A stretch of DNA of 64,000 nt from Trileptium ribeirensis (taxonomy: Eukaryota; Nematoda; Enoplea; Enoplida; Thoracostomopsidae): contig JASANE010026782.1 of assembly GCA_030248225.1 (NCBI GenBank), positions 1 through 64,000 of the forward strand. Reading direction: 5' to 3'. Positions 1-63,760 of the stretch are shown here, piece after piece. Position 1 is the stretch's first letter. Every line of letters starts with the position of its first letter. The notes under the pieces are model-generated. The model had not been told where the DNA came from, made no database searches, and was given only the letters and a program-made list of their open reading frames with translations. A program made the translations under genes and the position numbers.

Positions 1-129
1 GTACTCGTTCGTACATGCTGCTGGCTCATAAAATTAATGATGCATTATCGAAACTGAAATATTACTAACAGTAAGGATCGAGGACGCACAAGACACGACG
101 AAAACATATACCTACCATTCTTTTTGCAA

Positions 130-309
130 AACCTTCCTGATTTCAATTTCAGACGGCTCTTGCCGTACATCAAAAGAAATGACCCAGAATTGGGTCCAAT
201 TTGGTGGTATTATACAACAAAACACGGCCTAAAGCCGAGCTAGGCGCATTACGAATCGAAATGCGAGCTCATTACTTCGAGCTAACTCAGGACACCAAAA
301 ATATTATAC
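130..309 (+). pseudogene. pol remnant upstream of integrase (RNase H-integrase linker)
   Basis: Near 172 a reading frame encodes KRNDPELGPIWWYYTTKHG and then stops. The KxDPELG pattern is typical of the linker just before the integrase zinc finger in Ty3/gypsy pol. The coding sense then continues in another phase (201-389: ..HYFELTQDTKNI.. and YVTTRGHK), which runs into the integrase frame near 325-335. At least two frame breaks are therefore needed. A splice-acceptor-like TTTCAATTTCAG lies at about 141-152, but it has no visible partner. Confidence 0.5.
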
Positions 310-1425
310 ATGCATACGTTACAACCAGGGGACATAAATTACAAATTGTGCGTCCCAATCACATTGGTACAGCAAGTATTCAAACATGAACACAACACCT
401 TGTATGGAGGACATCCTGGCCGTGATCGACTACTAGCAAAATTAAAGCAATTTTACTACTGGAAGGGTATGTCGGAGCACGCACAACAATGGATCAGGCG
501 ATGCACTCTATGCCAATCCGCGAAGGACCCAATTGCTCGAATAACCACCGGATTGGGTAGGGCTCCGTTGGCAAATCAACCAATGTATCGTGTATTCGTA
601 GACATACTCGAAATTCAAGTTCGGTCGCAAGCGGGTAACCGCTATGTTATTGCATTCATCGATCAATTTACAAAATTTGCAATAGCAGTGGCAATAAGGC
701 ACCAGGATGCACACACAGCCGCACACATATTTTTATATGAGGTAGTCAACAAGTACGGAGCTCCCAGGGAGTTATATTCCGACAGAGGAGGTGCTTTCAC
801 CGCACATATGTTTGAAAGTCTGTGCCAAGAAATGCAGATATTTCGGCACATGAGTTTAGCTTACCACCCTCAGGCAAATGGAGAAATTGAACGATTTAAT
901 AGGACCCTACTATATTTGTTACGAGTGAGCGTACCACAAAATGACCACCACTCATGGGATGTATCATTACCGTTTTGCACCATGGCGTATAATTCATCGG
1001 CACACACAGCAACAAAATACCCACCATTTTTGCTCATGCACGGATTCTATGCTAGGCTCCCCGGAGAATACGACACGCATAGCGCAGCTACAGGATATAT
1101 TGGAGCTCATTCATATAGGGCCAACGCACAGCGCTGGATGGCTTCTATTAGGGAACGCGCATACCAGTCAATGAGAGCCGCGCAAGAGATAAATCAGCTA
1201 AGGTACAATAGGCGAACCCGCGAACCTCGCTACCAAACAGGTGAGTTAGTTTGGGTCTATAGGCACGATACCACACCAGGAACATCTAGGAAACTTACGC
1301 CTCGTTGGTGTGGACCGTACAAAATACTAAGGATCACTCCGCCATGCATGCGTGTAAGAATGCATTCTAAGGCATGGAACATGTCGTACACCTTAATAGG
1401 ACCAAGCCTTGTTTTAGGGCATTAG
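310..1425 (+). CDS. Ty3/gypsy integrase (pol C-terminal part)
   Basis: The integrase inserts retrotransposon cDNA into the host genome. The H2C2 zinc-binding module is visible as H28-x6-H35 with C65-x2-C68 (RRCTLCQSAK). The catalytic core has D98 in VFVDILE, D158 in LYSDRGGAFT and E194 in HPQANGEIERFNRTL, with exactly 35 residues between D158 and E194. The GPY/F-type C-terminal module follows (TPRWCGPYKILRI). The frame ends at a TAG just after the point where the family usually has a V-V-H-hydrophobic-N-R-x-K-P motif; that motif is present in the +2 phase at about 1383, so there is a frame break near 1370. The listed ATG is only the first Met in the open frame, because in these elements integrase is released from a polyprotein. 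The copy is probably inactive. Confidence 0.92.
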   Translation: MHTLQPGDINYKLCVPITLVQQVFKHEHNTLYGGHPGRDRLLAKLKQFYYWKGMSEHAQQWIRRCTLCQSAKDPIARITTGLGRAPLANQPMYRVFVDILEIQVRSQAGNRYVIAFIDQFTKFAIAVAIRHQDAHTAAHIFLYEVVNKYGAPRELYSDRGGAFTAHMFESLCQEMQIFRHMSLAYHPQANGEIERFNRTLLYLLRVSVPQNDHHSWDVSLPFCTMAYNSSAHTATKYPPFLLMHGFYARLPGEYDTHSAATGYIGAHSYRANAQRWMASIRERAYQSMRAAQEINQLRYNRRTREPRYQTGELVWVYRHDTTPGTSRKLTPRWCGPYKILRITPPCMRVRMHSKAWNMSYTLIGPSLVLGH

Positions 1426-1688
1426 ATCCAGTACCTAATGTAGGGGACTGGTTAAGTCAGGTACACGCTTCTGTATTAGAAAGGGGACTGAATGAACCAA
1501 CCCAACGAATTATCGCTGATAGGGATTTCGTTACTGAAATAGAACCCGTAGATGAAGTAGCAGTGCGCACTGTAAGAACAGCAGTCAGTGATGGTTCAGA
1601 CACCGAGAGTATAGAAATGGGTGACCCTAACGATCCTAATTTATATCGCCGGACTTATGCTGAAACAAGCGGCAATGGAGCACATTGA
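1374..1688 (+). pseudogene. Integrase C-terminal tail in a shifted frame
   Basis: This 104-codon frame starts with VVHLNRTKPCFRAL, the usual end of the Ty3/gypsy GPY/F module, and so continues integrase after a frame break at about 1370. It then becomes acidic and polar (DRDFVTEIEPVDE, SDGSDTESIEMGDPNDPN) and stops at 1686-1688. Downstream sense resumes in the original frame (EHIEYRTDDYDPQ, from about 1678), so a second, compensating break is likely around 1675. The two breaks could be decay indels or, less likely, programmed shifts. A second copy of the element would decide. Confidence 0.6.
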
Positions 1689-3003
1689 GTATCGAACGGA
1701 CGACTACGACCCGCAAAATCCAAGGACGGTCAGGAGTCCTCTGACTGATCCAGATAGAGAAATAGAACCATCTTGGCCACCAATATCGCAGGAACAGGTT
1801 ACTAGTCAAGAGGCTTTCTCGTACATACCAGAACCTGGTAGCCGAGACACGCAGGTAGAGTACGGACAACATACGGTGCCAGTAACCACAATGGAAAGAA
1901 TAGTAGCCACCAGCGAGGAAGTTCCATTCGGTGTACTGACTGTGGGCGTAGGCATACTTGAAGGACAACATTTCTACCCAGAGGACATCACGCTATCTAC
2001 CACGCCACACGGAGCTGCAGGTGGCATTGTCGTACCCGGACCATACACCTCGGAAGATCTACGTTATGCAATCATGCTCGCCGCTCAGGACCATCCATTA
2101 TTCCAATCAAGACCAGCTGAACATATTATGGCATCGCGGCTGCGGGTACCAATGGAAATGTCAACTCAAACTGTAGAAGACTATACGACAATACGCCCTT
2201 ATAGCGCTCCACCAGCAGCTGCTGACAGGCCTATGTCTCCCCATCAATACGTTTTTCGGGAGGCAGCCTTTACACAGCCACCAGGGTCACCAATGTCCAG
2301 CTATCTATCGGAGACATCTGGCGAGGACACTACCGTGGACGTGAGAGCAGCTGAAGCAGACGACGAGTTAACTAGTCAGACATCACAGGAGCCCTCTTCA
2401 GCTGAACGACGTGGTCGAACGGGACAAGGAACATCCAGCAGTAGTTCTCGAACACCTACTACGCAACCAGGAACCTCCGACTCACTAAGCGAATTCACGC
2501 TTGCGGAATCAAGCAGCGAACCACCAGCACCCAGAATGGGAATCGTTCGCGCGGTAACCTTAGATACCTCTGCCCGCACACGAGCCTCGACAGAAGAACG
2601 AGGAAAGGCACTTGTTGGACGGGCCACGCAACGGAAACAAATTATATCAACACGAGGAGGTTTGACCACCCAGTCTGGCACCACTGACCAGCCAGGACCA
2701 TCCACGGTAACCATTACAGAGCAGGTACACCTCACTACTGCTGCTACTACCTCCTCAGGAATAATACGCCTTAGTACGACTCAAGCGACGGTCCCAACCA
2801 GACACTTACTACATCGCCAGGCCAGGGATCGGGTCTTTAGGCCATACGGCGCAGCATCAATGAAGAGTCTGACTCGGACGACCCTGACCTGCGGGTGGAT
2901 TAATCCTAATCATATTCGCACGTACCTCAACACAAGTGAGCACAACAGGCCAACAAAAAGGGGGGTGGAAGAGGGGATCAGGAATACATTCACAGGTAAA
3001 TAA
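1621..3003 (+). CDS. Pro/Ser/Thr-rich disordered protein region after integrase
   Basis: The frame has 460 codons, in the same phase as integrase. The first 18 or so codons are probably out-of-frame noise, and the real sense begins near EHIEYRTDDY at about 1678. The product is low in hydrophobic residues and rich in S, T, P, Q and E (SSSSSRTPTTQPGTSDSLS; TTQSGTTDQPGPSTVT). It has no transmembrane segment, no signal peptide and no CCHC knuckle, which argues against env or gag. The C-terminus turns basic (RHLLHRQARDRVFRPYG). It could be a long tail of pol or a separate accessory protein. It ends 45 nt before the next ORF, with TAA at 3001 and TAG at 3046. Confidence 0.6.
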   Translation: MTLTILIYIAGLMLKQAAMEHIEYRTDDYDPQNPRTVRSPLTDPDREIEPSWPPISQEQVTSQEAFSYIPEPGSRDTQVEYGQHTVPVTTMERIVATSEEVPFGVLTVGVGILEGQHFYPEDITLSTTPHGAAGGIVVPGPYTSEDLRYAIMLAAQDHPLFQSRPAEHIMASRLRVPMEMSTQTVEDYTTIRPYSAPPAAADRPMSPHQYVFREAAFTQPPGSPMSSYLSETSGEDTTVDVRAAEADDELTSQTSQEPSSAERRGRTGQGTSSSSSRTPTTQPGTSDSLSEFTLAESSSEPPAPRMGIVRAVTLDTSARTRASTEERGKALVGRATQRKQIISTRGGLTTQSGTTDQPGPSTVTITEQVHLTTAATTSSGIIRLSTTQATVPTRHLLHRQARDRVFRPYGAASMKSLTRTTLTCGWINPNHIRTYLNTSEHNRPTKRGVEEGIRNTFTGK

Positions 3004-3048: not shown

Positions 3049-4281
3049 ATGCGACGAAGCTACAGTGCCAACGACATCCAGATGCCAATGCTACCAACAG
3101 GCCTGCGGCACGTACCGATGGTTTGCGGCGGCGGCATCTATCCGACGGAGCCTCTTTATCAAGCTCCACCAGGATCGCGCGGGGTAAACTTCGCCTCCAA
3201 AGGGACCCGCCGGCCAATGCTTGCCAACGAGACAACGACGCTCGACAAGTTCGAACACAACGGGCGGCGTCTGTCCAGCGCGGCCGAGAATTTCCATCTC
3301 AGCGTACTGGAGTTGGTGGGTTTCAACAACGCCGCAAAGGAGTTGGCCGAGGCGAATATTAGCCCAACCGAGCTACAACTCCGTAGCATCGCCCTCCATC
3401 GCCGCCTACCGATGAAGAGACGCTGCATGCTGAAATCTTATTACCCGCACATAATGCGGCCAATACTACTGGGCAAATTCAGCATGCCTGAATATGCGGA
3501 GGAATTGGAGGCTACCGAGGACCGGCGTCTATACAACGCTTCGCTCGACGACTTCTGGGGAACAGGCGCCTTCCACATCGACTGCTGCTGCGGCCGCACG
3601 TTCCACAACGTGACGGGTCGCCTGCTCGAGAAAATCCGAGCATACAATCGGGATGGACTCGTTCGGTGGCCCCAAGTCGTCATCGTGGGCGACGAGCAAG
3701 CGTTGCCGCTACTCAACTTCGCCGACCAGCACAACTGGCTGGTATTCGCTTGGCCACGCATGGAGATGGCCGACTTAATACAGTGGGCCAACGCCTTTGT
3801 TACACCACAGACGGACTGCGTAATTGTCCTCGGCGGTTATGGCAAATTGTGGCAGGCCGACTGCAAGGTCTATTCGCCCAGTGCGTTCACCAAGCGCATC
3901 AAGCGAAAATTGGAGGTGCTCGAACGGCGCCTCCGGGAAAATGCGGCCGTCTACGTCGCTCCGCCACCACCGCAGTGGAACGCTACGAACTATACCAGCG
4001 AAGCATGGGCGACGGAGTTGCGCATCCGAAAACTGCGCCTTACCGAGCAACACCAGGCCCTGCGGAACGTCATCATGCCTGCGTGGTCGGTACCATTAAC
4101 GGCACCCGAAGCCTGGGATACGGTCGGACCGTTCAACCGGGGTGAGGATCGCCAACGGTGGACCGAGCCAGTAGTGGCGCCCGCTTATCATGCGGAACTG
4201 ATCAACTGGGTGGGCCACTACTTTCGCTGCACTGGACTTTTTCGCCTCGGCGAACAGCGAAGGGGTGACAACGAAGAATAA
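3049..4281 (+). CDS. Accessory ORF A: SGNH-fold-like protein of the retrotransposon, function unknown
   Basis: The frame is intact for 410 codons, and the ATG follows an in-frame TAG directly. I do not recognise the family by name. The C-terminal two thirds are clearly paralogous to the next ORF: HIMRPILLGKFSMPEYA (residues 134-150), FWG (169-171), NVTGRLLEKIR (187-197), VVIVGDEQALPLL (210-222), VIVLGGYGKLW (258-268) and VYVAPPPPQW (301-310). The series V-x-x-x-GD, then W-P about 20 residues later, hydrophobic-GG, an alpha-helical stretch and a beta-strand ending in PP is the spacing seen in SGNH/GDSL esterases. However, the block I Ser is E and the GGND Asn is Y, so enzymatic activity is unlikely. 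A Cys-rich CCCG occurs at 179-182. Codons are GC-rich compared with pol. There is no signal peptide or membrane segment. A binding role is possible but not shown. Confidence 0.75.
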   Translation: MRRSYSANDIQMPMLPTGLRHVPMVCGGGIYPTEPLYQAPPGSRGVNFASKGTRRPMLANETTTLDKFEHNGRRLSSAAENFHLSVLELVGFNNAAKELAEANISPTELQLRSIALHRRLPMKRRCMLKSYYPHIMRPILLGKFSMPEYAEELEATEDRRLYNASLDDFWGTGAFHIDCCCGRTFHNVTGRLLEKIRAYNRDGLVRWPQVVIVGDEQALPLLNFADQHNWLVFAWPRMEMADLIQWANAFVTPQTDCVIVLGGYGKLWQADCKVYSPSAFTKRIKRKLEVLERRLRENAAVYVAPPPPQWNATNYTSEAWATELRIRKLRLTEQHQALRNVIMPAWSVPLTAPEAWDTVGPFNRGEDRQRWTEPVVAPAYHAELINWVGHYFRCTGLFRLGEQRRGDNEE

Positions 4282-4482
4282 GACCTATTAAGAAATCCGT
4301 TCGCACGTGGGTACCTCCAGCAAAGGGAAGCAGATAATCAGTGAAGAGTCATTCATAGAACACCCTAGAGCAGTAGAAACCGCAACCCTTTAGGGCGTAG
4401 AGGATTTCGTCTGCGGACGCGCGCGAGAGAATCAAGCGTAGAGTTAGAAATTACGCAAGCCATTGTAGTTGGTTGCACTAGC
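4282..4482 (+). other. Spacer between the two accessory ORFs
   Basis: About 200 nt with stops in the frame shared by both ORFs. A purine-rich AGCAAAGGGAAGCAG occurs at about 4319-4333, but nothing shows that it is a polypurine tract or a splice site. How the second ORF is translated (subgenomic RNA, splicing or reinitiation) cannot be read from the sequence. Confidence 0.4.
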
Positions 4483-5880
4483 ATGCGTAGCGCAAATCGA
4501 CTGTTGAAAAAAGGGACGAAACCTATAAAGGCTATATTGTTACAGATGGACAACAGCGTTCGGCAACGCGGTGAGGACGACAAAGACAACAACAGCGTTT
4601 GGCGACGCAGTGACAGTCAACTGGACCAGAGCGTTCGGCAACGCAATGGCAGCGACACCAGACGCTCCGAAGGCGGTCCAACCCGACGGGTACCAACAAC
4701 TGGGCCATACGCTCCGCCCGAGGCAACTACCTACCGCCTGCCCAGCATCCCGACTTATCACGTCGACTTAACGCAGCCCTATGTCCCGTTCCTGTCGCAC
4801 GGTACCGAGTGGCCGGAGCTGTCCAACATGCACGAGGCAGCGACGCCCTTCCATCACGATGGTACGACGGCCCCGACCGTCGAACAACACTATCAGGTGA
4901 GGGTGCTCCTCGTGCTCGGCCTGATGGAAGCGGCCAAGGAACTGATGGACATGGTTGGAAGGCCACAGCAGATAAAAGCCAGAGCGCGGGCGCTAAAGGA
5001 CGAACTGATCGACAACATCACCAGTGCCCGGCTCAAACCCCTGCTTGAACACATAATGCGGCCAATATTGATCCGTAAATTCAGCATTCCTAGCTACGCG
5101 CGGATCCTGCAGCTCACGGGAAACCAACCGCTCCTGGAGGTAACTACCGATACCTTCTGGGGTGTCGAGCGCACGCTCCAGCAGTTACGACAGGCCGAAC
5201 CACCCAAACACTGCCACAACGTCATGGGTCGTCTTCTGGAGGAGGTGCGGGAATACCTCACCTCGGGTTACGCTTGCTGGCCGCACGTCATCATCATGGG
5301 CGACGCGCTCCCGCTACCGTTGCTAGAAATAGCCAACGACAACAAGTGGCTCGTCTGCGCATGGCCTGGAACCACGCTAATACGCATGATCCAACTCGCC
5401 AGCGCCGTTCTAACGCCGTCAACCAAATGCGTCATCTTACTTGGAGGCTACCAATACATCTACCGGAAGGCGCAACCGGAGCAGCTCCATGCGACCAACC
5501 CAAATGCAGCCTTCAAGAAGATTAAGCGCCACCTAGGGATGCTGTCACGGCGAGTACCAGCGCGCACGCCCGTGATTGTCGCACCGCCGATACCCCGATG
5601 GGCCGCGGCTAACCAAGACGCAATATTTTGGACGGTCGAATTCAAACGAATAGTCGCCAACCATCGGCAACAGCACGACGCATTCCACAACGTCTATTTC
5701 CCGAACTGGCCGGTCGCTTTTAATGCCGCAGACGCCTGGGAGCGAGATGAGCCGCACATGGAATGGCAGGAGCGCCCACAGTTCGAAGAACCCATGGTTT
5801 CCAGGTACTGCTTGCGCAACTTGCGAGAATGGGTCGGCCAATTGGTGCGCGATGCCGAACTTGGGCGTTTAACGCGATAG
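4483..5880 (+). CDS. Accessory ORF B: paralogue of accessory ORF A
   Basis: The frame is intact for 465 codons. Two in-frame starts are possible, 4483 and 4546 (MDNSVRQRG). The N-terminus (residues 23-60) is a charged repeat NSVRQRG / NSVWRRS / QSVRQRN. From about residue 140 it aligns with accessory ORF A: AAKELMD (150-156), HIMRPILIRKFSIPSYA (190-206), FWG (215-217), NVMGRLLEEVREY (246-258), VIIMGDALPLPLL (269-281), AWPGTTLIRM (293-302), VILLGGYQYIY (317-327) and VIVAPPIPRW (364-373). The WPGTT and PPIPRW segments look even more SGNH-like than in ORF A. The block I Ser is Ala and the block III Asn is Tyr, so it is probably non-catalytic. DEPH at 422-425 might occupy the D-x-x-H position, but that alignment is uncertain. 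High-GC codon use matches ORF A and differs from pol. Confidence 0.75.
   Translation: MRSANRLLKKGTKPIKAILLQMDNSVRQRGEDDKDNNSVWRRSDSQLDQSVRQRNGSDTRRSEGGPTRRVPTTGPYAPPEATTYRLPSIPTYHVDLTQPYVPFLSHGTEWPELSNMHEAATPFHHDGTTAPTVEQHYQVRVLLVLGLMEAAKELMDMVGRPQQIKARARALKDELIDNITSARLKPLLEHIMRPILIRKFSIPSYARILQLTGNQPLLEVTTDTFWGVERTLQQLRQAEPPKHCHNVMGRLLEEVREYLTSGYACWPHVIIMGDALPLPLLEIANDNKWLVCAWPGTTLIRMIQLASAVLTPSTKCVILLGGYQYIYRKAQPEQLHATNPNAAFKKIKRHLGMLSRRVPARTPVIVAPPIPRWAAANQDAIFWTVEFKRIVANHRQQHDAFHNVYFPNWPVAFNAADAWERDEPHMEWQERPQFEEPMVSRYCLRNLREWVGQLVRDAELGRLTR
4548..4652 (+). repeat. Three tandem hairpin-forming repeats at the start of ORF B
   Basis: AGCGTTCGGCAACGC occurs near 4555 and 4632, and a variant AGCGTTTGGCGACGC near 4592. 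The units are about 37-39 nt apart. Each full unit contains GCGTT-CGGC-AACGC, a perfect 5-bp stem with a 4-nt loop, and encodes SV(R/W)(Q/R)R. Confidence 0.8.
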
Positions 5881-8190
5881 GCAAATGTAATAAGGGGCAT
5901 AGAGTATAGACCATCAGAAAAGTAGGAGTAAGCGTGCGAATAGTTAGACAAACCTAGGTGAAAGATAAGGACGACTAAAACAAGTAGGGCGGGAAACGGC
6001 GAGCCGCATCGAACATAAATAAAGCGGGGCGAGTAACCAGTATAACCGCGCGAAACAAAACAGGATAGTGCACAAATACAAGTTGCCAACCTGCACATCG
6101 CGAACGAAACAAATCATTTCTAAGGGACCTAATAATGAGCAATACGTAGTCGTTGGTGCTATTCGGCAAGTTTTAGCGTTTTTCGCTGAAAGATAAAAAA
6201 TTTAAAATTTCGATCCCCAGTTCGCGCCCCTGACAAAATTCCGGACACACAGTTCCGAAGCACCACCAAGCGCCCCCTCCGGTTCATGCCTCTAGTAAAA
6301 TTTTGGCGAATGGAGAATCTAGAATAGACATGAAATGTTGCACAAACTAAAGTATTGGTAGACGCACGAATATGCAGCATGGGGACAACAATCGACATGC
6401 AATTTTAGAACAATGACAGTCATACATTATACGAAATCATACAAATAATCGTTCGCAAACACACACGCACAGGGTTAGATTTTAAACTGTGACCAAGCTG
6501 CGATTTCTATTCAGTTATGGGCGATTCTGTAATTTGGGGTATTTTATGTTTTTCACTAGGTTCTGGGTGGTCGCAACCCCGAAAACCCTGAATGTCATAA
6601 CAAACCCCCGAAAAAAATTCTATTCATTTTTAAAATTTTTATTGCACCGTGCACCATGTTGTCGACTTCCACTGCCGAATCAAAAATATATGTATTGCTG
6701 TTACAATTGATTTTTTGCATATAACAAATTGCTTGTTTTTGGCAGCAAAACCTAATTTCATCTTTACTTACCGGGCTGTGTGGTCGCAGCACGCAAAATT
6801 CGAGAAATGGGTTGCACCAGTCCCTGGGAAACTACTGTCTGCAAGCCGCTGCAGCCATTATACCAAAAGAAATTAAAATTGCGAACAGTGGAACAGCCAC
6901 GACCCGGCGTGGAATTGGGCCTAACGACCCTGTCTCGGCGGTCAAAACTGCTCAGGGCTATCAAGTTCTACCGAGTGGACTCAGTTTGTTTTTCGTTGAA
7001 ATATTTCGTAAAATTTGTGTTTCGAACCATCAATCTACTAGTCGAGGTGTTTTATTTTCTTGTGTTAGTTGGTCACAATTATTTCATCGCAACGATGCTA
7101 ATATGTTATAATAGGAGTATTTTGATATTTGTTACCTCTGTTTACGCTAAACACAGAGCTCCGATTTTTTTGAAAGAACCCTGAAAATTGAACCGCGGTC
7201 TAACCGGCCACTCTGGAGGTTATAGTAAAGATTGACGTAACTTATAACGATACAGTATGGATCTGTTACTTATGCAACACAGACAACGACAAAAATGTTC
7301 TAAATAAACACGAAAAAATGCTAATATAAAAACCCAGCTGGGGAGGAGGGTAGGGTGTCCTGAGGTAAGCGGGGAAACTTCCCCAGCTATTTCCACTTTC
7401 TTTGAAGTTGCAGCTTGTGCCCCAGTTAATAGGCCCCAGGGTTAAATTTTGGGCTTTGTTAGAGTATATTCCCATAATGCAATTTTGAATATGTCACTGT
7501 ACACTTCTAAAGGAACACAACTATTTCTCTACTAACATTTTCTACATTTTCACACACTGATTGAATAATGTACTTAAAATATATTGTCAAAAACCTGTAT
7601 TTCAACCTCCCACTGTTGCGGGGTGCCAGAACACGTTTGATTCGCGTTCTGCATTGAGGACAATCTATTTTGTGTTTGAGTATGACCTTGTTATGTTCTC
7701 GTCACCGTCGTCTTAGCGGTATCTCTCTAAATAATGGCTCCATCTCTGTCAGAACTGTCCGATTCCATGTTGTAAAGTCTCGTCGTCGTGGTCTATTCCA
7801 ATTCAACGGTGCGTTGTCCAGCAATTTCCTTTTTGTTTTGTTATGTGGCCCCGCCATAGAAGACATATTGTTGTAATTGTTGACGTGATGCTGGAATTTC
7901 GATTGGCCAATCCACACAGAACGCAGTTTGAAGTGTAGCTGAGCCACGTGACTCCGAGTACTTTCCGCAGACAATTATTACGTTCGAACAGTTATATCTT
8001 GCAGTATCTTGAATGCTTGGGAGTCCAAGTATCAGAATCGTATAGAACAAATGGAATATCGCACGAGTCAAGATCTCTGAGCTCTCTTGCTGACGTGATT
8101 ATTTTGACACAGTTTCTGCAGTTTAGCAAAGACATATGCGGTGATCGCTATCCTGTTTGAATCGTCCTTGACAGTGTACAACCAGATTGT
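5881..8190. other. Non-coding tail of the retrotransposon, then AT-rich DNA
   Basis: 5881 to about 6150 is probably the 3' untranslated region or LTR of the retrotransposon; an AATAAA lies at about 6017. After that the DNA is AT-rich with scattered stops in all frames. A short GC-richer patch at 7335-7440 (CCCAGCTGGGGAGGAGGGTAG, later CTTCCCCAGCTATT) has weak inverted symmetry and may be a small decayed TIR element. I see no gene. Confidence 0.4.
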
Positions 8191-42411: not shown

Positions 42412-42724
42412 ATTCTGAAGAATCCCTGTGGGAATATGACCTTCGAGTGGTATCATTCTTCACTGATAAAGTATTTTGTTTGTTGCTTCGGCCCATGTCA
42501 AATTTATGGGCCGAAATATATTTCATGCGGACTATGTCAACTTTAGGGCCGAGGTATAATGCATGCCATGCCTGAATAATTCCTGTGGGAATATGCCCTT
42601 CGAGTTGTATCATTGTTAATTGATTAGTTATTTTGGTTGTTGCTTCGGCCCATGTCAAATTTATCGGCCAGAGTATAATGGATGCGGCCCATGTCAACAT
42701 TAGGGGCCGAGGTATAGTGCATGC
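42412..42724. repeat. Tandem duplication with unit of about 158 bp
   Basis: CCTGTGGGAATATG (42425 and 42582), TTGCTTCGGCCCATGTCAAA (42483 and 42640) and GGGCCGAGGTATA.TGCATGCC (42546 and 42704) recur in order. The second unit runs into the repeat also found at 32.9-33.1 kb. Confidence 0.8.
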
Positions 42725-43066
42725 CACGCCGTTCTCGATATACTAAGCGTTATTCTTAGCCGAAGCAAAGATTCCTATATGAGCCGTGTACTAAGCCTAA
42801 GCCGGGAAGGGGGCGGGTTGCCGCCCCAGAACCCCCCGCTCTAAAGTTGTTCTTTTTTCTACCGTATTAATGTCAGGCCCCTAAAGTTGAATGTGCCGTT
42901 GCTTGTACGTAATCTACTTTTGATTAAATTTTACTACAAAATGCTGTCGCACTTTTGGAGGCTCTACTACATTAGGTTTAGTGTTACGTTACAGGTAAGG
43001 CTTAGGGCCCTCTTGAACATCATAACGGTAACTTTATTTGAAATTTAAATTGTGGCCTACCCGAGA

Positions 43067-43264
43067 GAAGCTAAGAACCCCAGGTCAACGGGCTTCCCGA
43101 GAAGACTATAATTATTGTGCTGTAGCTCTAGCGAAGATTTTTAATCAAGTTTTTTGATCTAGCTAGAAGCTACGAATCCCAGGTCAACGGGCTTCCCGAG
43201 AGGACTATAATTATTGTGCTGTAGCTCTAGCGAAGATTTTTAATCAAGTTTTTTGGTCTAGCTA
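43067..43264. repeat. Near-perfect 99-bp tandem duplication
   Basis: Two units start GAAGCTA(A/C)GAA(C/T)CCCAGGTC, continue through AACGGGCTTCCCGAGA, ACTATAATTATTGTGCTGTA and GCTCTAGCGAAGATTTTTAA, and end AAGTTTTTTG(A/G)TCTAGCTAG. They differ at only a few positions, so the duplication is much younger than its surroundings. Confidence 0.9.
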
Positions 43265-44550
43265 GACAGTACACAGCTTTTTGCATGGATAGGCCTTGTG
43301 GAAACGGTTCGAACAGTGCCTTTGACCCGTTGCTGAGAAACCGGGAAGACGTAGATTTCGTTTTTTTCCTTTTTTTACACAGGCATCTAAGTTGCCAGAA
43401 TCTTGTGGTGTTGTGTCTAAAAAAGTTTGGACGTTGAATTTTCTTAGGTGTACAAAGTTTTTAAGTGTTTTTCCATGGATTTAAATTTTGTCTACCAAAC
43501 ACAATATTTTTACTTGCATGGATATTGGGGTCAAAGTAAAAACCGGTTTTTAATTTAAAGTTAAAAGTGCGAAGTATTCTTCTGCCGAATATTGCTCTGC
43601 ACGTTTATAGCTCTTTCGACCGATCGTTGGCATTTTTCACGAGATGGATTTTGAATGAATTTCTCGAACTAGGAAAAAAATTCAAAACTCCGTACGAGAA
43701 ATGTTTCGTATTTTTACAAAAAAATGAGTCAAGAAATTTGATTGAGATATTTTTGAAATGAAGGAAGTAGATACATTCTGGAGATTCACAATTACAATTT
43801 ATACGGATCCCTAAAAATTCTAAGTCCAGCAGTCATAGCTATATGCTTGTGATTTATGATTTGGGCGGTTCACATGGTCATTTCTGTGGATCAGGTACTT
43901 CTTACGTGGCGTTTAACATCAAGGCGGATCTGTGATACGTCACCGATATCTATTGACAGATCACAGAATCATCCCATAGCCCTCGGAGCCGGAGATTTAG
44001 TCCCCAGAAACAGATTTTCAGCGTCGTGGGTTATTATCTTCGGATTTGATTTGTATATATTGACTGAAATAGTGATTCAACTTGGGTAGTTTATTGACTT
44101 TCTGAGCACCATATCGATGATCCTAAAAATAAACTAACGATCCTCCCGGTGATCAAAAAATTCGGCTTTTCACATCTGGTTCGGTTAAAATGCAATTTAG
44201 GTTCTCTAAAAAGTAAACTTGATTAAATCGGGCACTCTTGACATTGCACACTAATATTGGACAATATTTTGAATACCTACTTACTTTCATATTCATGTAA
44301 AACCGTGCTGATGGGGAGCTCAAAATCAGGGATTTCGTCTCTGCTCGCCCGTCACTAACAGTGAAATAAACTGTTTCGCAGTTGCCTCCTGGTATATGTT
44401 TCGTTCAAAAAAATAAAAAAGGTTGCGAAAAAATAGTCTACATAACATTTGAAAATGCAGAATTGGCTTGGTAAAAATAAAAGTGTTTTTTAGTCGTAAC
44501 AGTTTTCATTGTCATACCTCACTCACTAAAACATCGAAACAATTTTTCTT
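43265..44550. other. AT-rich DNA, nothing recognised
   Basis: Short open frames only (for example 43567-43761 and 43856-44089), without motif or splice support. Confidence 0.35.
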
Positions 44551-46834: not shown

Positions 46835-47182
46835 TCATAGCTGCCACAATCATCGACCTGGCTTTGTTTTCTTAACAAACTCCTGCAGGTTAATATGAAA
46901 TATTCCTACTGAAATTATGCGCCCTACTTACGTTTCACACGGCAAATTGCTGAATTAATCTTGCTTTTTCCTTGGTTGTATTGGAACTTGATCATTCTAT
47001 ATATGGGCCTATGGGCCGTACATATGTATAATACATGTTTGGGCCAAAGATTAAGCAAAAATGTGGAAAATTCTAAGCAAATTTTTTAAACCGGAATTCC
47101 GGTTCCGGTATGGTTTTTGCTCTTTGCTGGAACCGCGACCGGAACACGATATTCCCAGGAACCGGAGTTGCAGTTACTCCCT
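46835..47182 (-). mobile_element. hAT-like element, truncated copy
   Basis: It aligns with the right end of the 1161-bp copy at 62600-63760 (AACAAACTCCTGCAGGTTA, CCCTACTTACGTTTCACACG, ATTGGAACTTGATCATT, AACCGGAATTCCGGTTCCGG) and ends in a perfect CAGTTACTCCCTG, the inverse of the CAGGGAGTAAC terminus. Homology stops at about 46835, so the other end is lost. Confidence 0.75.
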
Positions 47183-47256
47183 GCCGCATAGGTAGAAAAT
47201 TTATCAAGCTAATTTCTAACATCAGTCGCATCGATGTAGCTGAAATGTTTATGTAC

Positions 47257-52062: not shown

Positions 52063-53079
52063 CAGGGAGTAACCGGAATTCCGGTTCCGGCGATAATCGT
52101 GTTCCGGTTGCGGTTCCGGCAAAGGGCAAAAACCATAAAGGGACCGGAATTCCGATTTAAAAATTTTCTTTGAAATTTTCCAAGTTTTTTGTTTCATCCT
52201 GTAATCCAAACATATGTAATTATATATTATACAATGATCAAGCTGCAATAATGCCAAGCAAAAGAAAAGATTAACTAACCAATTTTCCGTGTGAAACGTA
52301 AGTAGGGCACATAATTTGAGCAGGAATTTTTCATAACCTGCAGGAGTTTGTTAAATCAAAGCCAGATTGATGCTTGTAGCAGCTATTTTACACATCCAGA
52401 AGTCTGTGGGATACGTTTGAATTAAACCGGTCCAACTCGGTAGCAGAGTATGGCTTACGCAGAAGTACTTAGGGTATGCTTGGCCAACATAAATTGCGTC
52501 AAGCACCCGCCAGTGCGCTTGTACAAGTCTAAATTGAAGTAAACTAACGTTATCTGCAACGCAGCTAGAAACTGCTTTCTTGGCAGTGAACTGTATTTAT
52601 TGAAACTGTGCGAGCAGCATTACAGTGTGTCTCATTTATAGCAGTCTGATTAGAAAGTTATCATCATTATGATCTAACTGACGGGCACTGTTTGTCCAAC
52701 GCTAGCCTAAACAGTGTCTCTGACCACTGATCAGAAAATTACCTTCTATCTATTATTTCCTCTTAGAATCATATAAACCAATAATTTTAAGTTTCCTGCA
52801 GAAGAACTTGCAACAAGCGTATGCGTAGTAAATGGAGGCGACTGGAGACAGAGCGAAAGTGTGTATTCTACGCTCCAGTGTGTATTCTACGCTCCAAGCT
52901 TTGTAAGCCCATTTGATTTGACGCAGTATACGCAATGGTGTATAGCGGAAGACATTTTTTGCTCTGAATGTCCAAAAACCGACATATTTAATCGATAAAT
53001 AAACATTATTAGCTTCCTCAGTTTCTTTAAAGTTTCGGAAAGGCAATAATACCATCGCAATACATTAAGTTTAATTCTA
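52063..53079 (+). mobile_element. hAT-like element, 3'-truncated copy upstream of the DDX54 exon
   Basis: It begins CAGGGAGTAACCGGAATTCC, a perfect family terminus, and aligns in inverse orientation with nearly all of 62740-63760 (shared GTGTGAAACGTAAGTAGGGC, GGTCCAACTCGGTA, AAATTGCGTCAAGCACC, GGCGACTGGAGACAGAGCGA, TTCCTCAGTTTCTTTA). A 20-bp internal duplication (GTGTGTATTCTACGCTCCA) occurs at 52858-52897. Homology ends at ACATTAAGTTTAAT (53079), so the other terminus is missing. The next coding exon begins 33 bp later. Confidence 0.85.
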
Positions 53080-62599: not shown

Positions 62600-63760
62600 C
62601 AGGGAATAACCGGAACCGTCCATTTAAACCGGATCCGGAACCGGAACCTGGTCTTCGAAATTTATATATAGTAAAACAGATGATGCAAGAAATGGAGCTA
62701 TAGTGGATTTAAAATGCATTTAAAATAACTTTTACATTAAACTTAATGTATTGAGATGATATTATTGCCTTTCTGAAGCTATAAAGAGACTGAGGAAGCT
62801 AATAATGTTTATTTATCGATCAAATATGTCGGTTTTTGGACACTCAGAGCAATGTCTTCCACTATACACCAGTGCGTATACTGCGTCAAATCGAATGTGC
62901 TTACAAAGCTTGGAGCGTAGAATACACACTTTCGCTCTGTCTCCAGTCGCCTCCCTTTACTACACATACGTTTGTTGCATGTTCTTCTGTAGGAAACATA
63001 AAATTATTGGTTTATATGATTCTAAGAGAAAATAATAGATAGAAGGTAATTTTCTACCCAGTGGTCAGGGACACTGTTTAGGCTAGTGCCCGTAAGTTTT
63101 GGACAAACAGTGCCCGTAAGTTAGATGATAATGATGATAACTTTCTAATCAGAATGCAGAATGCTTTAAATGAGACACACTGTGATGCTGCTCGCACAGT
63201 TTCAATAAATACAGGTCTTTGCCAAGAAAGCAGTTTCTAGCTGCGTTGCAGATACCGTTAGTTTACTTCAATTTAGACTGATTTACCAAGTTTACAAGCG
63301 CACTGACGGGTGCTTGACGCAATTTATGTTAGCCAACCGTACCCTAAGTGCTTCTGCGTAAGCCATACTCTGTTACCGAGTTGGACCGGTTTAATTCAAA
63401 CGTATCCCACAGACTTCTGGATGTGTAAAATAGCTGTTACAAGCATTGACCTGGCTTTGACTTAACAAACTCCTGCAGGTTATTATGAAAAATTCCTGCT
63501 CTAATTATGTGCCCTACTTACGTTTCACACGGCAAATTGGTTAGTTAATCTTTTCTTTTGCTTGGTTTTATTGGAACTTGATCATTGTATAATATATATT
63601 ACATATGTTTGGATTACAGGGTGAAGCAAAAAACGTGGAAAATTTCAAACAAAATTTTTAAACCGGAATTCCGGTTCCGGTATGGTTTTTGCCCTTTGCC
63701 GGAACCGGAACCGGAACACGATTTTCGCCGGAACCGGAACCGGAATTCCGGTTACTCCCA
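62600..63760 (-). mobile_element. Complete 1161-bp non-autonomous hAT-like element
   Basis: The left end CAGGGAATAACCGGAACCG and the right end (inverse TGGGAGTAACCGGAATTCC) form TIRs, with one terminal dinucleotide damaged at the right end. ATGATTAC occurs at 62592-62599 and 63761-63768, a perfect 8-bp target-site duplication, diagnostic together with the CAGGG start of the hAT superfamily. GGAACC repeats fill both subterminal regions. There is no transposase. Opposite in orientation to the copy at 52063. Confidence 0.85.

Follow-up and report, generated by a model that had tools for sequence, protein, structure and literature searches.

Paralogous NADAR genes with predicted non-catalytic SGNH-like domains follow the integrase of a giant Ty3/gypsy-like element in the nematode Trileptium ribeirensis

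Giant gypsy-like LTR elements are known from dugesiid planarians as Burro, with a polyprotein of 4,873 aa and extra domains that include AIR1, Smc, MATH, BIR, ankyrin, BCL2, Ubi2/SUMO-like, midasin-like and dUTPase-like modules; in the accessible part of that report NADAR has 0 occurrences, and both mentions of GDSL there concern rotifer elements (PMC6431247). Retrotransposon-borne NADAR domains have been described in a Gypsy lineage of Ectocarpus and in ORF1 of a Tx1 LINE of Crassostrea gigas (PMC12477816). SGNH/GDSL folds are found in ORF3, the extra ORF of the Vesta LTR retrotransposons of bdelloid rotifers, where the catalytic residues are retained, while the Penelope-like element Athena-L carries GDSL derivatives without them; the accessible text of this source has 0 occurrences of NADAR (PMC5408684). 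ORF1p of ZfL2-1/CR1 is a further retroelement SGNH protein, in ZfL2-1 an active esterase with a coiled coil, and Oskar OSK, the product of a host gene, is a non-catalytic SGNH RNA binder (PMC3905857, PMC12247748). Each ingredient of the locus described below has a retroelement precedent; for the pair of genes itself we found no published one. We know of no NADAR domain in ZfL2-1/CR1 ORF1p or Oskar.

We analysed a window of 64,000 nucleotides (contig JASANE010026782.1, positions 1 to 64,000) in which a sequence-only reading had placed two long ORFs, here A and B, on the strand of the integrase ORF, with positions and lengths that proved exact (Table 1). The collinear blocks that it had listed as shared are present in the BLASTP alignment of A and B (36% over 377 aa, E=1e-71), a similarity far beyond chance that disposes of the objection, raised in the same reading, that the two might show no significant resemblance. 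By sequence, A and B are paralogues, and chance ORFs are ruled out by this alignment together with the dN/dS of ~0.1 given below. The duplication likely took place within the element; since the copies looked at carry both genes, the pair may also have been acquired already duplicated. Hydropathy windows bore out the claim that both proteins lack transmembrane segments and signal peptides (maximum KD19 1.06 for A and 1.51 for B), which, with the NADAR and SGNH folds, rules out an identification as env. Both proteins are basic, the NADAR part of B being an exception (pI 6.7). Of 29 rows of B, in which several copies are entered twice, 9 have an in-frame stop at codon 6 or 9, and B may therefore effectively start at Met23. 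A search of B against 5.8 billion proteins returned none at E<=0.001 among 7994 candidates scored, and its NADAR part alone had no match in the protein search; viral contigs searched with A1 gave 35 pattern matches, 0 of them confirmed, and the plasmid search gave no match.

Table 1. Features of the element copy in the window
Feature	Positions	Strand	Basis
3' part of pol RNase H/linker region, broken frame	1..309	+	three-frame reading; RT-RNaseH-IN share a frame in other copies
Integrase, H2C2 zinc binding and rve core	310..1425	+	Pfam Integrase_H2C2 1.1e-18, rve 9.8e-15
Integrase end and start of Pol C-terminal tail, another frame in the window copy	1374..1688	+	ORF list, frames
Pol C-terminal tail (Q), Ser/Thr/Pro-rich	1621..3003	+	in Pol frame in other copies
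ORF A, 410 aa: degenerate NADAR and non-catalytic SGNH-like domain (predicted)	3049..4281	+	BLASTP vs B, profile, copies, selection
NADAR-like domain of A, ~residues 58-200; profile aligned 129-198, envelope 92-200	3220..3648	+	hmmsearch E=5.5e-5
SGNH-like domain of A (predicted), ~residues 205-400; Ser to E216, Gly to R237, Asn to Y264	3661..4248	+	homology to B; residue counts, 20 copies
ORF B, 465 aa: NADAR and non-catalytic SGNH-like domain (predicted)	4483..5880	+	Pfam, copies, selection
NADAR domain of B, residues 111-259; E134, E219, D223, W226 retained, Lys to V141	4813..5259	+	
SGNH-like domain of B (predicted), ~residues 264-465; Ser to A275, Asn to Y323	5272..5877	+	
Region 3' of B; downstream stretches of nine other copies are similar as far as ~6136	5881..6136	+	

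The sequence-only reading named no domain in either ORF. NADAR is a fold that recognises ADP-ribose and strips it from guanine. In B the domain is recognised by Pfam (E=3.5e-11, above the curated cut-off), and in A by hmmsearch with a custom-built profile, assembled from 76 of 80 viral loci (4 with stops were left out) and four annotated phage NADARs, which matched none of 2000 shuffles at E<=10. These profile matches place both A and B in the NADAR superfamily. The catalytic residues of the NADAR guanine-ADP-ribose hydrolases are E43, E125 and K50 in P. nicotianae numbering, and a lysine, K95, is essential for efficient activity of the E. coli C7 NADAR (PMC11543638). At these sites B retains both glutamates and has an arginine (R140) adjoining the valine that replaces the lysine, while A has A79 (S in 19 of 20 copies), N163 and V86, so that the full set of two glutamates and a lysine is present in neither. 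The ribose-contacting glutamates, Asp and Trp of B are retained in 26-27 of 27-28 readable rows, several copies being entered twice. As B lacks the lysine and A also lacks both glutamates, hydrolysis by either protein may be weak or absent. A and B thus have the fold in common with the NADAR/YbiA enzymes and DarT1-NADAR antitoxins, and B also the two glutamates, Asp and Trp, but they differ from these, as far as the accessible descriptions go, in the replaced lysine of B, the missing glutamates of A and the fusion of both to a pseudo-SGNH domain (PMC11543638, PMC11125620).

This second domain follows NADAR in A and B alike and is predicted from structural models to adopt an SGNH/GDSL-like fold, flavodoxin-like alpha/beta. 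By sequence, SGNH had no match in Pfam or PDB; the models are of low to moderate confidence in this part (block means ~40-79 in the first and 36-78 in the second), and Foldseek with the second model ranked SGNH 2 at E=0.064. The alignment behind the second model included 36 NADAR proteins, and the NADAR fold in it therefore depends on the sequence assignment. At the positions that we assign, from the block motifs, to SGNH blocks I and III, the catalytic Ser is replaced by Ala275 in all 29 rows of B and by Glu216 in all 20 copies of A, and the catalytic Asn by Tyr323 in all 25 readable rows of B and by Tyr264 in 19 of the 20 A copies, the rows of B again including several copies twice. The changed catalytic residues are fixed in the copies examined, and the counts rule out an active esterase. 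The predicted fold is shared with Vesta ORF3, ZfL2-1/CR1 ORF1p and Oskar OSK; unlike the first, A and B have lost the catalytic residues, and they are neither an active esterase with a coiled coil like ZfL2-1 nor a host gene like Oskar (PMC5408684, PMC3905857, PMC12247748). With the Ectocarpus and C. gigas elements they share a retrotransposon-borne NADAR, in one case in a Gypsy element, but there it lies within Pol (N-terminal) or ORF1, and the available text describes neither duplication nor SGNH fusion, whereas here it occurs in two separate tandem ORFs after the integrase (PMC12477816).

The sequence-only reading had left room for ORFs confined to this locus, or for host genes beside a stray integrase, and had proposed that the pair be sought next to integrase in many copies and its dN/dS measured. 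In the genome, A has at least 105 matches and B at least 92. The order integrase, Pol tail, A, B is constant in 9 of ten copies, picked non-randomly from the listed A matches and mostly the best-matching on long contigs, and B adjoins A in 20 of 20 loci that are the best 20 of the 105 A matches. Copy C9996 is rearranged. This copy number and conserved order show, at the sequence level, that A and B belong to the element and are not host genes, against both suspicions. Pairwise dN/dS was ~0.1 for each gene and below 1 in 190 of 190 pairs for A and 188 of 188 for B, indicating the strong purifying selection that the proposed test looked for; the script kept pairs only where enough codons were shared and dS was not saturated, namely all 190 for A, 188 of 190 for whole B and 121 to 170 for its parts, B extending in these loci only to ~residue 430. 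NADAR is the most constrained part of B (omega median 0.049). The integrase is 90-95% identical to that of 9 other copies, with an omega median of 0.060. Of the searches bearing on the host lineage, those for PF02949 and PF00379 gave no match in this genome, though no positive control responded, and the COX1 match is a decayed copy.

These copies come from a giant Ty3/gypsy-like LTR element, as its domain content and termini indicate, with a length of ~26 kb in one copy. In copy C12004, Pfam searches of eight pieces identified a Gag zinc knuckle followed by PR-RT-RH-IN in order, and a single frame of >4,300 codons runs across adjoining stretches from Gag through an env-like module into Pol. 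The env-like region of this copy presents, in order, signal-like, furin-like, fusion-peptide-like and TM segments, and its pieces had no match to Pfam envelope families. Of 9 upstream stretches, 6 contain the region, and 5 of those 6 have the furin and fusion motifs (C18949 lacks the furin motif in a pattern search); C17304, C7725 and C9866 have no env-like match, and their similarity to other copies starts further downstream. Copy C4863, the one with both LTRs, has TG...CA terminal repeats of 3636 and 3436 bp; because its LTR blocks are 3-20% divergent and it shows no matching target-site duplication, it may be a recombinant. A Ginger-type DNA transposon, suggested by copy similarity that seemed to begin ~2.3 kb upstream of the integrase, was ruled out by the RT, protease and LTRs. 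By description, not by sequence, the element is likened to Burro (PMC6431247): both are giant and gypsy-like, with extra domains as well as accessory ORFs and one enormous polyprotein that starts with a CCHC Gag, and the candidate env-like module here would sit in frame where Burro has its own, after gag and ahead of PR-RT-RH-IN.

The window copy begins at the contig edge and is incomplete, its similarity to other copies ending as given in Table 1. It lacks ~300 bp of the Pol C-terminal tail found in most other copies compared, and this tail had no Pfam match. Three-frame translation shows the Pol frame broken at ~230-330 and ~1370, so this copy is decayed. No 3' LTR was recognised in the window, in which no tRNAs were found either, and Rfam gave no match at the gathering cut-off.

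We propose, with about an even chance of being right, that this giant, Burro-like element with its env-like module carries A and B as accessory genes, a NADAR plus dead SGNH pair that deals with host ADP-ribose chemistry on element RNA or cDNA. PAF-AH alpha1/alpha2 form a heterodimer with the SGNH fold, and on this precedent A and B would form a pair, perhaps likewise a heterodimer. The basic pseudo-SGNH domain would place the pair on element RNA or cDNA, RNA binding being suggested by charge and analogy, and the NADAR of B would read or slowly remove ADP-ribose put on by a supposed host NAD-dependent defence, with A as its non-catalytic partner. A counter-defence role is what we infer from these features. 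An origin from the host, as its genes or an exapted locus next to a dead integrase fragment, could draw on the intact state of A and B beside the broken Pol of the window copy and on GC3 (0.69 for A and 0.67 for B vs 0.43 for integrase), a difference without explanation that counts against the accessory-gene reading; the many dispersed copies, the pair beside Pol in nearly all copies examined and the long open Pol frames elsewhere refute it for the family, and with room left for the single window locus only we consider it extremely improbable.

A more serious contender, though one we believe somewhat less probable than the proposed role, is a structural or RNP role for both proteins, their enzyme folds having been turned into binding scaffolds that help package or localise element RNA in the manner of Gag/ORF1p or Oskar, with no ADP-ribose link left. 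Both SGNH sites and the NADAR site of A are dead and fixed so in the copies examined, the phosphate-binding lysine is gone from the NADAR of B and the proteins are basic; the ORF1p of CR1-type elements is moreover an SGNH protein, and Oskar binds RNA through a dead one (PMC3905857, PMC12247748). The conserved ribose-contacting residues of B and the strong constraint on its NADAR nevertheless speak for a retained link to ADP-ribose, and a Gag-type zinc knuckle is already present in the element. It is unlikely, in our estimate, that A and B instead counter the host at the level of small ADP-ribose/NAD signals, by soaking up or hydrolysing messengers of the cyclic ADPR type; this has been proposed for viral NADARs, chiefly those of phages, but in the same source, as far as available, the NADARs of eukaryotic RNA viruses are argued to target macromolecular adducts (PMC9503650).

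The role of eukaryotic NADAR proteins is an open question (PMC11125620), and selection retaining both A and B suggests that the element uses them to handle host ADP-ribose chemistry. With its accessory genes, the element would widen the repertoire of the giant gypsy type with in-frame env that was described in planarians. Two NADAR paralogues under strong purifying selection in a multi-copy family, together with the canonical NADARs of Polinton-like elements in the same genome, suggest that hosts and virus-like elements confront each other over ADP-ribose chemistry, for which A and B are testable proteins. We suggest very tentatively, as an idea more likely wrong than right, that NAD-dependent modification of nucleic acids or nucleic-acid-bound proteins serves this host lineage as a defence against virus-like elements, and that two unrelated classes of these, the giant env-bearing retroelement and the Polinton-like DNA elements, were separately armed with NADARs, the retroelement version being a reader and a pseudo-enzyme that arose by duplication and are joined to a pseudo-SGNH domain that binds RNA. 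At least 150 further canonical NADAR ORFs occur in the genome, and the six examined all lie inside Polinton-like elements. By eye, the NADARs of two loci, L132 and L134, deviate from the glutamate motif.

The sequence-only reading had described two tandem paralogous accessory ORFs downstream of a Ty3/gypsy integrase; ORFs A and B (410 and 465 aa) do lie where it placed them, and their similarity spans nearly the full length of both. Pfam recognised residues 111-259 of B as a NADAR domain (E = 3.5e-11) and returned no match for A. A custom profile, built from 76 NADAR proteins of viral contigs and 4 annotated phage genes (80 in all), detected both A (E = 5.5e-5) and B (E = 1.2e-11), and none of 2000 shuffled A sequences matched it at E <= 10. 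By tblastn, B matched 16 phage-genome records at E <= 1, the strongest at 2e-4; the alignments fell mostly on residues 105-261 of B, and several of the records bear a NADAR or YbiA annotation.

Coordinates of the features, in the window unless another sequence is named
Feature	Sequence	Position	Strand
Integrase		310-1425	
Pol C-terminal tail		1621-3003	
ORF A		3049-4281	+
ORF B		4483-5880	+
Insertion of ~1.3 kb within ORF B	copy C8477 (L107)	about 880-2208	
Short tandem duplication, ~158 bp at 85%		42415-42730	
Short tandem duplication, ~100 bp at 96%		43066-43266	
Dispersed repeat family		46837-47183	
Dispersed repeat family		52063-53075	
Dispersed repeat family		62736-63739	
Decayed mitochondrial COX1-like stretch	L127 (G000:C17193)	64554-65603	

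The key NADAR residues, whose roles have been reported, are E43, E125, D130 and W133, plus a lysine (PMC11543638). In our residue map the first four correspond to E134, E219, D223 and W226 of B, kept in 26/27, 27/27, 26/27 and 27/28 readable rows, and the lysine to V141 (27/27). The equivalents in A are A79 (Ser in 19/20 copies), N163, D167 and W170 (20/20 each), with V86 at the lysine position (19/20). In the second, SGNH-like domain, at block positions that we assigned by placing the SGNH motifs on the alignment, the catalytic Ser is replaced by A275 in B (29/29 rows) and E216 in A (20/20 copies), and the block III Asn by Y323 in B (25/25 rows) and Y264 in A (19/20 copies). The dead SGNH state is therefore fixed among the copies examined and does not reflect decay of the window copy.

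The window starts at the first base of contig C17596 (assembly of 687 Mb), and its copy is a decayed member of the family, 5'-cut and 3'-truncated, with a frameshifted Pol and intact A and B. The genome holds at least 105 matches to A (102 of 2444 candidates scored; 63-92% identical, self aside) and at least 92 to B (91 of 2616 scored), both counts being lower bounds; by manual count, stop-free matches spanning at least 390/410 residues of A number 44 of 105, and those spanning at least 442/465 residues of B number 29 of 92. In-frame stops interrupt 14 of 29 B rows, in which some copies are present twice; in 13 of these the stop falls in the first 66 codons. As nine rows have theirs at codon 6 or 9, before Met23, B may begin at that Met. 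We compared gene order in the upstream and downstream flanking stretches of ten hand-chosen copies: integrase, Pol tail, A and B follow in the same order and strand in nine, and the tenth (C9996) is rearranged yet has A and B. All 20 A loci examined have an adjoining B. In copy C9866 (L122/L123) two direct repeats of 2144 bp, 98% identical to each other, bracket the block from integrase to B, and resemblance to the other copies sets in just before the integrase, a rearranged or shortened form.

Pairwise Nei-Gojobori omega was below 1 in 190/190 pairs for A (20 copies; median 0.103) and in 188/188 usable pairs for B (20 copies; median 0.090). Within B, median omega was 0.049 for NADAR, 0.065 for SGNH and 0.234 for the N-terminal tail. 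The integrase (45/45 pairs below 1, 10 copies; median 0.060) and the env-like module considered below (15/15 pairs, 6 copies; median 0.053) behaved alike. Mean dS among copies is ~0.55 for A and ~0.62 for B, and A and B differ from each other by dN 0.64 and dS ~2, close to saturation. The duplication predates the divergence of the copies seen. Third-position GC is 0.69 in A and 0.67 in B, versus 0.43 in the integrase.

In copy C12004 of the element, a single open frame of 2932 codons extends through the whole stretch until the Pol tail finishes. The last 1392 codons of the stretch next to it upstream are open in this frame too, starting just before a Gag-like start; C4863 has a comparable open stretch of 2952 codons. 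Pfam search of eight pieces of the C12004 polyprotein identified a zinc knuckle (3.5e-5), aspartic protease (9.8e-10), reverse transcriptase (1.8e-31), RNase H (3.1e-37) and integrase (8.7e-19), and gave no match above cut-off for the ~2,000 residues that separate the zinc knuckle from the protease (L114 and L126 in C12004; L120 in C4863). This env-like region has first a signal-like segment, then a furin-like site with a hydrophobic stretch resembling a fusion peptide immediately after it, and last a transmembrane segment. The segments of an envelope follow one another in this way, and the region sits between gag and pol without a change of frame. It is present in 6/9 upstream stretches, with the furin and fusion part in five of those six; in the other three, family similarity starts farther downstream. 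The same in-frame position of an envelope between gag and pol is reported for planarian Burro (PMC6431247). In C4863 the element lies between two repeats, 3636 and 3436 bp long, that begin with TGTAACAG and finish with GTACA; it spans ~25.9 kb, 5.7 kb of which lie outside the stretches analysed. In C12004, portions of both LTRs match at 96% and the 3' LTR has 1.57 kb extra.

Canonical NADAR ORFs also occur elsewhere in this genome, with at least 150 Pfam matches (150 of 2317 candidates scored; control genomes matched in 3/14). All matches listed reach at least 123 bits and none coincides with an A or B locus (B scores 44 bits). We sampled six loci (L129-L134): the DNA of L129, L130, L131 and L133 is 80-95% alike across kilobases, and that of L132 and L134 70% alike over 1.7 kb. 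Pfam on nine ORFs drawn from L129, L132 and L134 identified NADAR in all three. L129 also has a poxvirus-A32-type ATPase, an rve integrase carrying a chromodomain, and a capsid-like ORF whose match is weak (E = 0.096); L134 also has the A32-type ATPase, and in L132 the ATPase region was recognised through DNA similarity to L134. By eye, all five of E, K, E, D and W are present in the NADAR of L129, and the NADARs of L132 and L134 deviate at the second glutamate. We read the six loci as Polinton/Maverick-like elements, more weakly so for L132 and L134, the Pfam integrase match coming from L129.

NADAR has been reported in retrotransposons, in Ectocarpus Gypsy Pol and Crassostrea Tx1 ORF1 (PMC12477816), as has SGNH in LTR elements (PMC5408684), and literature on YbiA and transposable elements includes work on Caenorhabditis host genes. 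Literature searches that mostly left out subscription papers, so that absence weighs little, gave nothing relevant beyond PMC12477816 for NADAR with Gypsy, nothing related by title for NADAR with SGNH and nothing for NADAR with Polinton. The closest description is a new accessory architecture from known folds in giant gypsy-like elements. We hold the anatomy with high confidence. A and B would be produced from the element's 3' portion and may associate with each other, because paralogous proteins of the SGNH fold, PAF-AH among them, do so (PDB title of 1fxw). By analogy with Oskar, whose SGNH domain holds nucleic acid (PMC12247748), the basic pseudo-SGNH part may do likewise. As its key residues are conserved, the NADAR of B would read or remove ADP-ribose carried by guanine or by bound molecules, with A as its putative pseudo-enzyme partner. 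A role tied to ADP-ribose is an evenly balanced proposition, and its nucleic-acid counter-defence form is less likely than not.

Two copies of the dispersed repeat family in the window, a separate family, are inverted and 89% identical over 1 kb.
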